Of a stretch of DNA of 64,000 nucleotides, positions 58,698 through 64,000 are shown piece by piece. The notes below the pieces were generated by a model. The model saw nothing but the letters and a program-made list of their open reading frames with translations, was not told where the DNA came from and did no database searches. How positions within the stretch are numbered: the first letter of the stretch is position 1; the number at the start of each line of letters is the position of its first letter. Origin of the DNA: Bacteroidia bacterium (GTDB taxonomy: Bacteria; Bacteroidota; Bacteroidia; Bacteroidales; GWA2-32-17); contig JACREQ010000079.1 of assembly GCA_016218155.1 (NCBI GenBank), positions 1 to 64,000 on the forward strand, written 5' to 3'. A program made the position numbers and the translations under genes.

Positions 58698-59759
58698 TTA
58701 AAAAGTTAAATTTATTGGTTCGTCCGGTATTTTGCTTTTATCTGTACCTTCAATTACTTCAAAAGTAAAGTCATCCACCCAAAGCTTACCATTACCATTT
58801 AAAAATACCCCAAATGTAATCGGCTTTGATGTACTTGGAACATCTGCTATTATTTCATATTTTTTCCAATCATTTGTTCCTTTAATCTTTTTACTTAATG
58901 TGTTTCTATTGTTAGATTTTAAACAATATAGTATTAAATGTGCTTCGTTTTCAACGTTTTCTGATTTAACATAGGCAGTTATCTTTATTTTAGTATTGCG
59001 GTAATTGCGGCTTTTTATAGTTTGTGTAATAAAGCCTAACGAAGTTTCTTTTATCTGAGATGATTCTATTAGTAAAACATTCCCATTTTTTATAGAATCT
59101 TTGACAATTGATATATTATGACTTTTATTCTTGTTATAAAAATTCCATCGATATGATACTTCATGATTTTCTTGAGAAGGAATTTCAAAACTAAGATTCT
59201 GTGGTAAAACAGGTGTTTGTTTATATGTTTTTCCAGTTAATGCTATTGAAGAATCTACAACTTCAAATTTAATTTCATCTATCCATCCCGTTCCTTTGCC
59301 TGATATTAAAAAACCAAACAATATTTTATCAGTATATAATGGAATGTCTGTAACTGATTCATATTTTTTCCAATTATTGGTTCCTTTAATTTGTCTATCA
59401 GCCATGTTGTCAAAACTAATTGTTCTGCCATCATCATCGTCAGTTCTGAGCCAAAGCCCTGCCCACTCTTCAATATTTGAGGTTTTAACAAGAGCACTGA
59501 ACTTAACCCTTTTTCCTAAATATTTTGTTGCATTAAAACTTTGAGCAATAGTTCCAAAGTCCATTTCTTTATATACTTCAGCAGTTGATTTTAAGAAAGC
59601 AACTTTTTTATTTAATAAAGAGTCTTTTTCAGTTCCAGCAATATATTCTTTTGAATTACCTGCTAATTTCCACCCTTCTGGCAACTTATTTAATGTATCT
59701 TGAGAATAAGCTAAAATAAAAAAGCAATTAAAAAGAAAAGTAATTATAATAGTTTTCAT
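58698..59759 (-). CDS. Secreted protein with two jelly-roll (CBM-like) domains
   Basis: 353 residues with a signal peptide ending LAYSQ. Two homologous halves of ~150 residues are visible. The first has GKRVKFSALVKTSNIEEWAG, GTNNWKKYESVTDIPLYTD and GTGWIDEIKFEVVD; the second has NTKIKITAYVKSENVENEAH, GTNDWKKYEIIADVPSTSK and GKLWVDDFTFEVIE. The pattern is that of carbohydrate-binding-module-like beta-sandwich domains. It has no catalytic part and no sorting domain. As the first gene of the sigma-factor operon it may be the product whose secretion or binding is monitored. Ligand unknown. Confidence 0.75.
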   Translation of the reverse strand: MKTIIITFLFNCFFILAYSQDTLNKLPEGWKLAGNSKEYIAGTEKDSLLNKKVAFLKSTAEVYKEMDFGTIAQSFNATKYLGKRVKFSALVKTSNIEEWAGLWLRTDDDDGRTISFDNMADRQIKGTNNWKKYESVTDIPLYTDKILFGFLISGKGTGWIDEIKFEVVDSSIALTGKTYKQTPVLPQNLSFEIPSQENHEVSYRWNFYNKNKSHNISIVKDSIKNGNVLLIESSQIKETSLGFITQTIKSRNYRNTKIKITAYVKSENVENEAHLILYCLKSNNRNTLSKKIKGTNDWKKYEIIADVPSTSKPITFGVFLNGNGKLWVDDFTFEVIEGTDKSKIPDEPINLTF

Positions 59760-59875
59760 TTGGTAATTTTTCTATTAATACACTTAAGTGCGAAAAACGT
59801 TCATATAAAAGTAGTAAAATATAATATAGTTAATAAAATCTCATATCTAAATCTGTATATTAATAACTATTAAAC

Positions 59876-59883
59876 TATTTTTG
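59876..59883 (+). promoter_or_regulatory. -7 box of the carA promoter
   Basis: TATTTTTG fits TAnnTTTG; CTG at 59853-59855 is at a 20-base distance in place of TTG. The carA ATG at 59949 lies 65 bases downstream, leaving a leader with no obvious riboswitch or uracil-type attenuator. Confidence 0.4.
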
Positions 59884-59948
59884 TCATCCGGAACTACGTT
59901 TCTTATAACTGTTGTTATAAAATTATTAATTAAAATAATTACACGTAA

Positions 59949-61022
59949 ATGGAAAACCGGAATATCGATCTTATTCTTAAAGACGGTACAAAAATCACAG
60001 GAAAAAGTTTTGGGTTTAAAGGGTCAGCTTCTGGCGAAGTTGTATTTAATACTGCTATGACTGGTTATCCCGAAAGTCTTACAGATCCCTCGTATAAAGG
60101 ACAAATATTAGTACTTACTTATCCTTTAATTGGAAATTATGGTGTGCCTGATTATAAATCGGAAAATGGAATACTTAATTTTTTTGAGTCGGAAAAAATT
60201 CATATTTCAGGATTAGTAATTGCTGATTACTCTTGGGAAAACAGTCACTGGAATTCGCAAAAATCTTTATCAGAATGGCTGATTGAACATAAAATTCCTG
60301 GGATTTATGGTGTTGATACGCGAGCCATAACAAAGCACCTAAGAGAACTTGGTTCGATGCAAGGGAAAATTATTTGGAATAATGAGGAGCTGGATTTTTG
60401 TGATCCTAATTCTGAGAATCTTGCAGAGCAGGTTAGCACAAAAGAAATTATTGAATATGGTAATGGAAAATACAGAATAGTATTAGTTGATTGTGGAGTA
60501 AAATTTAATATTATAAGAAGATTGTTAAAACGTGATACTACTGTTGTTCGTGTTCCATGGAATTATGATTTTACAAATGAAAAATACGATGGGCTTTTTA
60601 TTTCTAATGGTCCGGGCGATCCAAAGAAGTGTGAAGTAACAATAAAACATATTGCAAAAGCATTTGCAAAAGATACTCCTATATTTGGTATTTGTTTAGG
60701 CAATCAGTTGATGAGTCTTGCATCAGGAGGTGATACCTATAAATTAAAATATGGTCATAGAAGTCATAACCAGCCAGTTTTACAAGTTGGCACTAATCGT
60801 TGTTATATAACTTCACAAAACCATGGATTTGCCACTGATGCAAATACTTTAGGAGAAGAATGGCAACAGTTATTTGTTAATGTAAATGATAATACAAACG
60901 AAGGAATTATTCACAAAACAAAACCTTTTTTCTCAACACAATTCCATCCCGAAGCAAGCAGTGGTCCAACAGATACGGATTTTTTGTTTGATAAATTTCT
61001 TGACCTTATAAAAAACAATTAA
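59949..61022 (+). CDS. carA: Carbamoyl-phosphate synthase small subunit
   Basis: 357 residues, normal length. The N-terminal domain holds VFNTAMTGYPESLTDPSYKG and YGVDTRAITKHLRE. The C-terminal class I glutamine amidotransferase has FISNGPGDPKKC, the nucleophile C249 in FGICLGNQLMSLASGG, and the histidine/glutamate pair in FHPEASSGPTDTDFLF. It supplies ammonia from glutamine to CarB for carbamoyl phosphate, used in pyrimidine and arginine synthesis. carB is 514 bases further on, separated by a four-helix-bundle gene. Confidence 0.95.
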   Translation: MENRNIDLILKDGTKITGKSFGFKGSASGEVVFNTAMTGYPESLTDPSYKGQILVLTYPLIGNYGVPDYKSENGILNFFESEKIHISGLVIADYSWENSHWNSQKSLSEWLIEHKIPGIYGVDTRAITKHLRELGSMQGKIIWNNEELDFCDPNSENLAEQVSTKEIIEYGNGKYRIVLVDCGVKFNIIRRLLKRDTTVVRVPWNYDFTNEKYDGLFISNGPGDPKKCEVTIKHIAKAFAKDTPIFGICLGNQLMSLASGGDTYKLKYGHRSHNQPVLQVGTNRCYITSQNHGFATDANTLGEEWQQLFVNVNDNTNEGIIHKTKPFFSTQFHPEASSGPTDTDFLFDKFLDLIKNN

Positions 61023-61024
61023 AT

Positions 61025-61051
61025 AATTTGGAAATGTTTCAATTTGAAAAT
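61025..61051 (+). repeat. Left inverted-repeat region of the inserted unit between carA and carB
   Basis: AATTTGGAAA (61025-61034) and AATTTGAAAAT (61041-61051) are repeated in inverse orientation at 61516-61525 (9 of 10) and 61507-61517 (11 of 11). They begin right after the carA stop and flank the four-helix-bundle gene. Confidence 0.6.
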
Positions 61052-61065
61052 TAAAATTTAAGCTT

Positions 61066-61422
61066 ATGCAGGGAAATAAAAAGAACATAATCGTTGAAAT
61101 GTCTTTTCAGTTTGCGCTTGGAATAATTCAATTTTGTGAAGAGTTAGAAACAAATAAAAAGTTTATTATTTCGAGACAGCTACTTAAATCAGGAACTTCA
61201 ATAGGAGCTAATATTAGAGAAGCACAGAATGCTGAAAGTAAAGCAGATTTTATTCATAAAATGAAAATTTCAGCAAAGGAAGTTGATGAAACTATTTATT
61301 GGCTTGAATTGTGCAAGTTTTCAAAAAGCTATCCGACTAATGAAGAATTGATTTTGCAAGTAAATAATATTCAAATGGTTTTGTCAAAAATAATAGGAAC
61401 TGCAAAAAGAAATAAAGAATAA
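61066..61422 (+). CDS. Four-helix-bundle protein (23S rRNA intervening-sequence type)
   Basis: 118 residues, nearly all helical. The family pattern is clear: VEMSFQFALGIIQFCEELET near the N-terminus, then LLKSGTSIGANIREAQNAES, KADFIHKMKISAKEVDETIY and WLELCKFSKS. These proteins were first seen in intervening sequences of spirochaete 23S rRNA and form pentameric four-helix bundles; their role is not established. The gene sits alone between carA and carB, surrounded by inverted repeats on both sides. It may therefore have been inserted as a unit into the car operon. Transcription through it would be needed to reach carB unless a promoter lies inside the unit. Confidence 0.88.
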   Translation: MQGNKKNIIVEMSFQFALGIIQFCEELETNKKFIISRQLLKSGTSIGANIREAQNAESKADFIHKMKISAKEVDETIYWLELCKFSKSYPTNEELILQVNNIQMVLSKIIGTAKRNKE

Positions 61423-61442
61423 AAATAATTTGAATATTAATC

Positions 61443-61525
61443 AATTTGGTAAGGGAGTAATTTTAAAGAAAATTAAAGTGAGGGGGTTTCATTACCAAAT
61501 TTATTCATTTTCAAATTACCAAATT
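61443..61525 (+). repeat. Right repeat region of the inserted unit between carA and carB
   Basis: AATTTGGTAA (61443-61452) has two inverse copies, TTACCAAATT at 61492-61501 and again at 61516-61525. ATTTTCAAATT (61507-61517) mirrors the left-side repeat at 61041-61051. carB starts 12 bases after this block. Confidence 0.6.
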
Positions 61526-61536
61526 AAAGATACATT

Positions 61537-64000
61537 ATGGATAAAAAAACAGAAAAGGTATTAGTAATAGGTTCAGGAGCATTAAAAATTGGCGAAGCCG
61601 GGGAGTTTGATTATTCTGGTTCGCAGGCTTTAAAAGCATTAAAGGAAGAAGGAATTTTTACCATTCTTATTAATCCGAATATTGCTACTGTTCAGACGTC
61701 TGAAGGTATTGCAGATAAAATTTATTTTTTACCAGTAACTCCCGATTTTGTTGAGCAAGTTATTATTAAAGAAAAACCCGAAGGGATACTTCTTGCATTT
61801 GGAGGCCAAACTGCACTAAACTGTGGAGTAGAGTTATATAAATCAGGAATACTTGAAAAGTATAATGTTAAAGTTTTAGGAACTCCTGTACAGTCAATAA
61901 TTGATACTGAAGATCGTGAGCTTTTTGTTAAAAAATTAGACCAGATTAATGTTGACACAATCAAAAGTCATGCTGTTACTACAATTGATGATGCGCTGAA
62001 AGCGGCTAAAGATTTGGGTTTTCCAATTATTGTAAGAGCAGCATTTGCACTTGGTGGACAAGGAAGTGGGTTTTGTAACAATGATGCAGAATTAATTACT
62101 TTAGGGAATAAAGCATTTTCGCATTCTAATCAAATTCTTGTTGAAAAATCACTTAAGGGCTGGAAAGAGATTGAATACGAAGTGGTACGCGATTGTTATG
62201 ATAATTGCATAACAGTTTGCAATATGGAAAACTTCGATCCACTTGGAATTCATACCGGAGAAAGTATTGTGGTAGCACCCTCGCAAACCCTTACAAACAG
62301 CGAATACCATAAGCTACGAGAAATTGCAATCAGAATTGTAAGACATATAGGAATTGTTGGAGAATGCAACGTGCAATATGCACTTTGCCCTGATTCGGAA
62401 GAATACCGTGTAATTGAAGTAAATGCAAGGCTTTCACGCTCAAGTGCACTTGCTTCAAAAGCAACAGGGTATCCTCTTGCATTTGTTGCTGCTAAATTAG
62501 GATTAGGTTATGGTTTACACGAATTAAAGAATTCTGTAACAAAAACCACAACTGCATGCTTTGAGCCTGCTTTAGACTATATTGTTGTAAAAATTCCGCG
62601 TTGGGATTTGGGCAAATTCAAAGGAGTTTCTAAGGAATTGGGAAGCAGTATGAAAAGTGTGGGTGAAGTTATGGCAATTGGGAGAACCTTTGAAGAAGCA
62701 ATACAGAAAGGGCTTCGAATGATAGGACAAGGGATGCATGGTTTTGTTGGAAACAAGGATATGGAATTTGAAGAGGTAGAACAAATTTCAAAAGAACTTG
62801 CAAACCCAACAGATATGAGAATCTTTGTTATTGCAATGGCTCTTCATAAAAATTATTCAGTAGAAGAGATTCACCAACATACCAGAATCGATAAGTGGTT
62901 TTTATATAAACTAAAAAATATTTATGATTTAAGAAATCAGATTTCAAGATATAACTCCATTGAAACACTTCCCTTAGAGATGCTTCATGATGCAAAGAAA
63001 CTGGGCTATACCGATTTTCAGATTGCTAAAATATTGTATAGTAATTTAGACGACGCATCTGACAAATCATTGCATATAAGAAATTATAGAAAAATTGCAG
63101 GTATTGTACCTTATGTTAAACAAATTGACACACTGGCTGCAGAGTATCCTGCCCAAACAAATTATTTGTATTTAACTTATAACGGTTCTGAGCATGATAT
63201 TAAATTTGAAAACGACAACCGTTCAGTTATTGTTTTAGGTTCTGGTGCCTACAGAATTGGTAGTAGTGTTGAGTTTGACTGGTGTAGCGTAAATTCATTG
63301 AACACTGTTAAGAAAAAAGGGTTGCGTTCTGTAATGATAAACTATAATCCTGAAACGGTAAGTACTGATTACGATATTTGCGACAGATTATATTTTGATG
63401 AGTTATCGTTTGAAAGAGTTATGGATATTATAGACAATGAAGTTCCTCAGGGAGTTATTGTATCAGTGGGTGGACAGATTCCAAATAATCTTGCAATGAG
63501 ACTTTATCAGAATAATGTTAATATTCTTGGCACATCTCCGCTTTCTATTGATAATGCTGAAGATCGTCATCGTTTTTCTTCTACATTAGATGAGCTTGGA
63601 GTTGATCAGCCAAGATGGAAAGAACTTGTTACAATTGAAGATATTTTTAATTTTGTTGATGAGGTTGGTTTTCCTGTTTTGGTAAGACCTTCATATGTTC
63701 TTTCGGGTGCTGCAATGAATGTTGTTTCGAACAGAGACGAGCTAGAGCATTTCCTAAATCTGGCTACAAATGTTTCAAAAAAATATCCGGTGGTTGTTTC
63801 TGAATTTATAGAAAATGCAAAGGAAATAGAGTTTGATGCTGTAGCCAAAAATGGTGAAGTAATTATTTATGCAATTTCAGAACATATAGAGTTTGCCGGA
63901 GTTCATTCAGGAGATGCTACTATTGTTTTTCCTGCACAAAAATTATATGTAGAAACAATTCGTAGAATAAAAAAGATATCCAAACAAATTGCAGAAGCTT
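61537..64000 (+). CDS. carB: Carbamoyl-phosphate synthase large subunit (3' end outside window)
   Basis: 821 codons from the ATG at 61537 are seen; the full protein would be ~1070. It joins ammonia, bicarbonate and ATP into carbamoyl phosphate. The first ATP-grasp half opens [20 protein letters not shown] and continues [22 protein letters not shown] and [20 protein letters not shown]. The oligomerisation part follows, and the second half begins [19 protein letters not shown] with [30 protein letters not shown] and [13 protein letters not shown] differ from the E. coli motifs (GPIIIGQACEFDYSG, GPNRIGQGIEFDY) and are of the Bacteroidota kind, with some likeness to eukaryotic CPS. The synthase and allosteric end lie beyond the window. 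Confidence 0.95.

Follow-up and report, generated by a model that had tools for sequence, protein, structure and literature searches.

The question raised by this locus is what has come to lie between carA and carB, and by what route. In the genome analysed here (G000) the two genes are separated by 514 nt, at positions 61023-61536 of the window, by which we mean the whole 64,000-nt stretch of contig C79 that was analysed. At 17 loci with both genes in the fetched stretch and no intervening gene of the 23S_rRNA_IVP/S23 family (IVP gene) between them, the gap, counted from the last aligned carA residue, measures 2-124 nt. We lean towards reading the spacer as a copy of a small mobile cassette that has no transposase and occupies operon junctions. 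The unit would consist of an iteron array, a four-helix-bundle (IVP/S23) gene and an inverted iteron array, lying co-directionally between two operon genes.

The element between carA and carB

The original prediction placed a single gene of the intervening-sequence (IVS) family in this spacer and inverted repeats at its flanks, and both are borne out by coordinates and profiles (Table 1). The IVP gene scores 76.7 bits with PF05635 (cut-off 33.8) and 90.4 bits with TIGR02436 (cut-off 24), it is intact, and it is the sole plus-strand ORF of at least 50 aa inside the spacer, so that no transposase is encoded there among ORFs of this size and strand. The profile search of the IVP gene returned no nuclease family, a homing-type site-specific endonuclease being absent. 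With 0 families matched at E≤0.01 among the PADLOC defence models, an anti-phage defence gene was rejected, and an Rfam scan of 59700-62500 left the spacer without a match and gave one sub-threshold match inside carB. The family is known from rRNA IVS (PMC4990558) and has been called functionally uncharacterized (PMC11270868); unlike the 23S rRNA IVS, the carA-carB element sits outside any rRNA gene.

Table 1. Features of the carA-carB region, in window coordinates
Feature	Position	Strand	Remarks
carA, upstream host gene	59949..61022	+	TIGR01368, 458 bits
5' iteron arm, AATTTG words	61017..61055	+	inverted partner of 61487-61525; p=0.011
four-helix-bundle (23S_rRNA_IVP / S23 family) gene, 118 aa	61066..61422	+	PF05635, TIGR02436
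inner AATTTG words directly 3' of IVP gene	61426..61452	+	local pairing with 61492-61518; inside 3' flank conserved to G001
3' iteron arm, inverted copy of 5' words	61487..61525	-	pairs with 61017-61055; 3' flank conserved to G001
carB, downstream host gene, continues past window end	61537..64000	+	TIGR01369, 1299 bits

The 5' arm, which shares a few bases with the final codons of carA, is complementary to the 3' arm over 39 nt (74%), and within these arms a 14-nt pair (61041-61054 with 61504-61517, 93%) holds the perfect 11-mer that had been predicted, while the inner words pair locally over 27 nt (89%). Terminal inverted repeats of the IVS kind are thus present in the window copy, with p=0.011 for the inverted flank score over 5000 dinucleotide shuffles. 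No clean tandem array is apparent, the tandem-repeat listing having no entry for either arm. Since this p value is modest for the window copy alone, the case rests on comparison.

Word arrays as a feature of the class

For this comparison 168 loci were assembled, namely 50 from the genus of the window, 80 from its subfamily (the best 80 of 589, all named), 30 from the phylum chosen by best scores only, and 8 from cyanobacterial plasmids (out of 30 records found); 156 were usable, and the other 12 were excluded on account of Ns, internal stops or flanks of insufficient length. At p≤0.01, inverted similarity between the flanks was found at 91 of the 156 loci, direct similarity at 24 and either at 102, leaving 54 with neither. 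Inverted or either kind of similarity occurred at 17 and 22 of 44 genus loci, 51 and 54 of 74 loci from the best 80 of the subfamily, 18 and 19 of the 30 best-scoring phylum loci, and 5 and 7 of the 8 plasmid loci. Windows of the same spacing elsewhere in the loci gave 2 (inverted) and 6 (either) of 296, and the flanks of carA gave 0 and 1 of 26. Repeats no commoner than chance, an outcome that would have spoken against the original prediction, did not occur, as the class lies far above these controls, although the window copy by itself reaches only p=0.011.

Autocorrelation over the 91 inverted loci gives, at the level of the class, flank periods of 8/16/24 and 7/14/21, and G exceeds C in the 5' flank of 76 of them. 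The flanks are therefore arrays of words of 7-8 bp, mostly inverted and G-rich on the 5' side, and the words vary between copies. Words at the plasmid loci include AGGGAAC, GGGAGTA and GGGTGTA, which are presumably cyanobacterial STRR words, STRR being, as we take it, the name for short tandem word repeats. In a Pseudanabaena galeata plasmid (L198) the family gene lies between direct AAAAGCT/AAAAGCC arrays, between cas6 and cas4, and the IVP domain appears in one paper among the entries of its list of CRISPR-linked domains. At L266, L304 and L311 pairs of inverted word arrays enclose a short geneless stretch and resemble non-autonomous forms, and the arms of L064 and L083 contain or adjoin the palindromic stretch CCGCC[AG]CGGCGG.

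The words follow the protein subfamily. Over 11,671 locus pairs for which no homologous neighbour was detected, mean word similarity climbs with protein identity from 0.05 (below 40%) through 0.07 (50-60%) and 0.09 (60-70%) to 0.25 (at least 70%; 20 pairs, which may include undetected same-site pairs), and the Mantel correlation between protein and word is r=0.23, the highest of 999 permutations being 0.073. ATKTG words, with two or more required in each flank, were found at 37 of 74 loci of the window's subfamily (from the best 80 of 589) versus 0 of 79 others, a count that excludes the window copy, L055 and L059. L059, which lies at another site in G001 and encodes a protein 60% identical to that of the window, also has ATKTG words. 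The family gene is under purifying selection, with median dN/dS values of 0.098 and 0.076.

The same junction within the genus

Five genomes of the genus contain 6 (G000), 9 (G001), 19 (G002), 18 (G003) and 7 (G004) family matches, some of them truncated copies or copies with stops. Four of the five other copies in G000 (L001, L002, L003 and L006) have, by eye, word arrays with different words in each, and L005 has none. At carA-carB itself, G001 carries an ortholog whose protein is 93% identical to that of the window and whose flanks are inverted (p=0.015), G004 carries a distant family member (35-37% identical) with inverted words of the CTAAAGTG type (p=0.0005), and the junction is empty in G002; carA was not found in G003, a genome that is 74% complete. 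Synonymous distances in carA put G001 and G004 nearest to each other (0.40), with G000 at 0.75-0.76 from both and G002 at more than 1.1, and carB agrees (0.61 vs 0.82 and 0.98). Since G000 and G001 share a cassette that G004 lacks, the cassette does not follow the host genes. The prediction of a mobile unit with paired flanks is supported, the gene being present, replaced or absent at this junction within one genus that has 6 to 19 copies per genome, and many other copies of the family having paired flanks of their own.

Between G000 and G001 the 3' flank is identical at 99 of 114 columns and the 5' flank at 45 of 67. As dS is 0.76 for carA and 0.945 for the IVP gene (with dN 0.040), the 3' flank is conserved. 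What had been named beforehand as contrary evidence, a gene carried by all relatives with unconserved flanks, is thus not what the genus presents, with G002 empty and the 3' flank retained. With regard to the idea that the words are copied from the target, the sequence AATTTGGAAATG occurs both at the empty site of G002, apparently in the last carA codons, and in the 5' arm of the window, and may be a scar, a target or a chance match.

Two features of individual assemblies deserve mention. L072 (G002 contig 31) is a cassette duplicated in situ, with two identical family genes and their flanks in tandem (gene-strand 1488-1868 and 1952-2332) and a third, decayed piece after them. At L009 and L037 (G001 contigs C213 and C161) the end of carA is present in two diverged versions, one of these contigs stopping just past the 5' arm, which probably reflects mixed strains in the assembly.

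Insertion sites and distribution

Of the 198 genomes sampled from the phylum, 157 have family members, and at 131 of 149 loci both of the longest neighbouring ORFs are co-directional. The junctions carA-carB, scoA-scoB, sufB-sufC and enoyl-CoA hydratase/3-hydroxyacyl-CoA dehydrogenase recur, and further sites lie upstream of cysN and upstream of nuoD; carA-carB copies are found in the window's genus and also in Chryseobacterium and Epilithonimonas (L148, L151, L162). On the subfamily protein tree, with site labels read from the flanks and checked with one locus per site, carA-carB changes 3 times (2 forced) and scoA-scoB 8 times (4 forced), while the sufB-sufC and dehydrogenase sites change once each, the dehydrogenase clade standing beside a scoA-scoB member. 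These counts are soft, as L142 is probably miscalled and L100 and L048 have long branches. The site changes indicate that the same few junctions have been reached more than once.

At L292 and L302 a family gene with TAGTAATTAG-type words lies upstream of a gene read as nadD. This is the neighbourhood of a family member in two strains of F. columnare, between guanylate kinase and nicotinate-nucleotide adenylyltransferase, which is annotated in the relevant part of that report without remark on mobility (PMC5524665).

A fixed site in a second genus

Exchange at a single site can be followed in genus g58, which we take to be Flavobacterium, at the junction upstream of a 352-aa gene that is present in 146 of 150 g58 genomes. 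Among the 70 loci fetched (the 30 best and 40 more), 42 have a family member at the site, including 28 of the 30 closest genomes; 5 of the 28 loci without one have no recognised downstream start. L242, L260 and L268 carry another subfamily with TTTAAAC words. Adding 3 earlier loci to the 42 and subtracting 7 that belong to the other subfamily or are truncated or broken gives 38 orthologs, whose words are of either CTRAG or CARAG type.

In 37 of the 38 the left and right arms, some 400 bp apart, have the same majority state (Spearman 0.94; L212 is tied on the left), an independent-pairs test of the two arms having 2 pairs only. On the protein tree the cassette types fall into two clades at 100/100, with 2 (left) or 1 (right) changes. 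A tree of the neighbouring host gene, built from the 30 of 38 rows with enough sequence, requires 10 changes for the same types, the shuffled mean being 10.3 and supported branches forcing at least 5. Linkage of cassette type to host SNPs was seen in no bin on either side among 28 rows, the lowest p being 0.10 (upstream 0-30 nt, 8 sites) and the bins next to the cassette holding only 6-11 SNPs. At a fixed site, then, the gene is exchanged along with both of its arms while no adjoining host DNA can be seen to move with them, and this same-site spread, discordant with host genes, is as expected of a homing-type element. At a further g58 junction two alternative cassettes can be recognised by eye (L287-L291 and L293 versus L295 and L296).

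Besides replacement, decay and loss occur at the g58 site, with broken copies at L234, L238, L246 and L260 and geneless arrays, judged by eye, at L249, L266 and L271. Apart from fragments next to the site copy, no copy at another site in 14 genomes exceeds 51% identity to it, which indicates that same-site exchange dominates and that jumps to new sites are rare.

Other sequences also occupy this junction. At the geneless L235, L243, L244, L251, L253, L256, L257 and L258 a hairpin of the type AAGAGCCAAGAT...ATCTTGGCTCTT is followed by T-rich sequence; it may be an older relic, or it may serve as a terminator. Repeats of the CTCTCC/GGAGAG type (CTCTCCTTTGGAGAGGG and similar sequences) occur at L232, L233, L240 and L245, and at L232 they stand at both spacer ends, inverted.

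A proposed homing-like cycle and its competitors

No enzyme that would move the cassette was found, and in a unit with neither transposase nor nuclease strand transfer is probably carried out by the host, through annealing or recombination over the words. TRAP is a protein that binds RNA repeats, and the IVP protein, a relative of solved pentamers, might similarly take several 7-8 nt words in a row, perhaps one word per subunit, and so mark the unit. On this reading the protein would recognise its own flanking words. Such binding would define the unit and would enable a newly arriving cassette to locate the resident cassette or take its place, the words serving as the short sequence that the two share for host annealing or recombination. 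The outcome would be a cycle like that of homing elements, in which a cassette invades a site, decays, is lost and later invades again.

A rival account, passive allele exchange, to which we assign an appreciable but minor probability, would have ordinary resident small genes whose alleles are moved by homologous recombination in conserved host genes, the words being slippage-prone flanks carried along. It fits the observation that swaps are same-site and intragenomic copies distant, and that the species trading types are closely related, where recombination is plausible. Against it, cassette type is unlinked to host SNPs even within 30 nt (at few sites), words agree between arms about 400 bp apart, and unrelated subfamilies replace each other at one site, as at L242, L260 and L268 and in G004 at carA-carB. 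The recurrence of junctions between partner genes (carA-carB, scoA-scoB, sufB-sufC), the purifying selection and the occupancy of the g58 site in 28 of the 30 closest genomes could also speak for a domesticated regulator that binds its words in the mRNA or the DNA of the operon and so fixes the proportion between the two host products. Patchy presence (42 of 70 g58 loci, the empty junction of G002), unrelated members as replacements and the four broken copies make such a role hard to credit.

It had also been predicted that the unit includes a structured RNA whose paired flanks could fold the whole gene into one large hairpin, and the arms might then pair in the car transcript and be cut by RNase III, as in the 23S rRNA IVS. 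The Coxiella IVS does have inverted repeats at its ends, and RNase III excises it (PMC4990558); co-direction with host genes and the conserved 3' flank with its local pair would suit this scheme. However, G-U mismatches between arms show no excess over A-C mismatches at any of three score limits (162/198, 147/164 at 101 loci, and 120/127), some loci have direct rather than inverted words, and the spacer folds like its shuffles (z -1.07; 15 of 100 as good). The repeats therefore show no sign of being kept as an RNA stem, a hairpin as conserved feature was rejected, and that part of the prediction is not supported; in their behaviour the flanks are words of DNA, which disfavours an RNA version, and an intervening sequence in the mRNA is improbable. 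Least credible of all is retro-mobility by means of a resident reverse transcriptase, for which the likeness of PF05635 to the diversity-generating retroelement (DGR) protein Avd (PMC10053308) and the one RVT_1 match of G000 can be cited. That match lies on contig C108, not on the window's C79, and dependence on such an enzyme is disfavoured by the 10 of 22 searched genomes that have no RVT_1 match, among them G183 and G250, which are single contigs and have 10 and 15 members of the family.

Relation to known systems

Homing elements of the group I intron or HEG type cycle through spread, decay, loss and reinvasion. The mobile cassette favoured here resembles them in same-site spread between species, decay, loss and reinvasion, but it has no nuclease and an occupied site can pass to another type. 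It shares its protein family with the 23S rRNA IVS that carries an S23p/IVP ORF; that of Coxiella burnetii measures about 430 nt, has terminal inverted repeats and is thought to be selfish, and how rRNA IVS move is described as unresolved (PMC4990558). The cassette differs in lying in an operon junction, in having arms that are short-word arrays following the protein, and in that RNA pairing is unsupported. It offers a direct handle on such movement, supplying a protein together with its candidate target, natural pairs of protein and word in large number, and sites at which two types are exchanged.

Among solved structures, 2GSC (XCC0516) and 2RLD match the profile with E values of 1.8e-27 and 1.4e-36 and have five chains each, and XCC0516 is a toroidal homopentamer (PMC4990558); in the portions of the literature covered for these two entries neither a nucleic-acid target nor a genetic context is described, in contrast to the cassette. 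Avd is related to the IVP in fold and family (PMC10053308), whereas the IVP gene has no adjoining reverse transcriptase. The literature covered, which comprised few subscription papers and no preprints, contains no link between this protein family and short-word arrays or mobility outside rRNA. It is conceivable, though we hold it only tentatively, that in Bacteroidota and Cyanobacteria IVP/S23 genes form the core of a large and still undescribed class of mobile cassettes without transposase, with a ring protein homing into operon junctions by way of its own 7-8 bp words, that the rRNA IVS are copies which landed in rRNA, and that some orphan short-word repeats are relics.

Short tandem repeats of words with a period of 7-8 bp, as in the cassette arms, include TAACTGA in Cyanobacteria and Bacteroidetes, for whose spread "no mechanism is evident" (PMC4679880), and heptamers in Nostoc and Xanthomonas (PMC4692102). 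At p≤0.01 such arrays flank or adjoin seven of the eight plasmid copies (8 of 30 records), and the cassettes provide a testable carrier, though most arrays checked are orphans. The exact word ATTTGAAA, repeated 2.75 times, was found in 1 of 345 genomes, below its reversed control (5 genomes), at a locus with no family member within 1.5 kb, which marks exact-word scans as a poor means of finding arrays. Threefold TAACTGA occurs in 15 of the 345 genomes and its reversed control word in 2. Sixteen of the 18 distinct TAACTGA arrays fetched have no family member within 1.5 kb, which weakens the idea of cassettes as the source of all heptamer repeats. The other 2 have one, where by our own arithmetic (about 5 copies per 4 Mb) fewer than 0.1 of 18 would be expected by chance, so that the arrays are enriched near family genes even though most stand alone.
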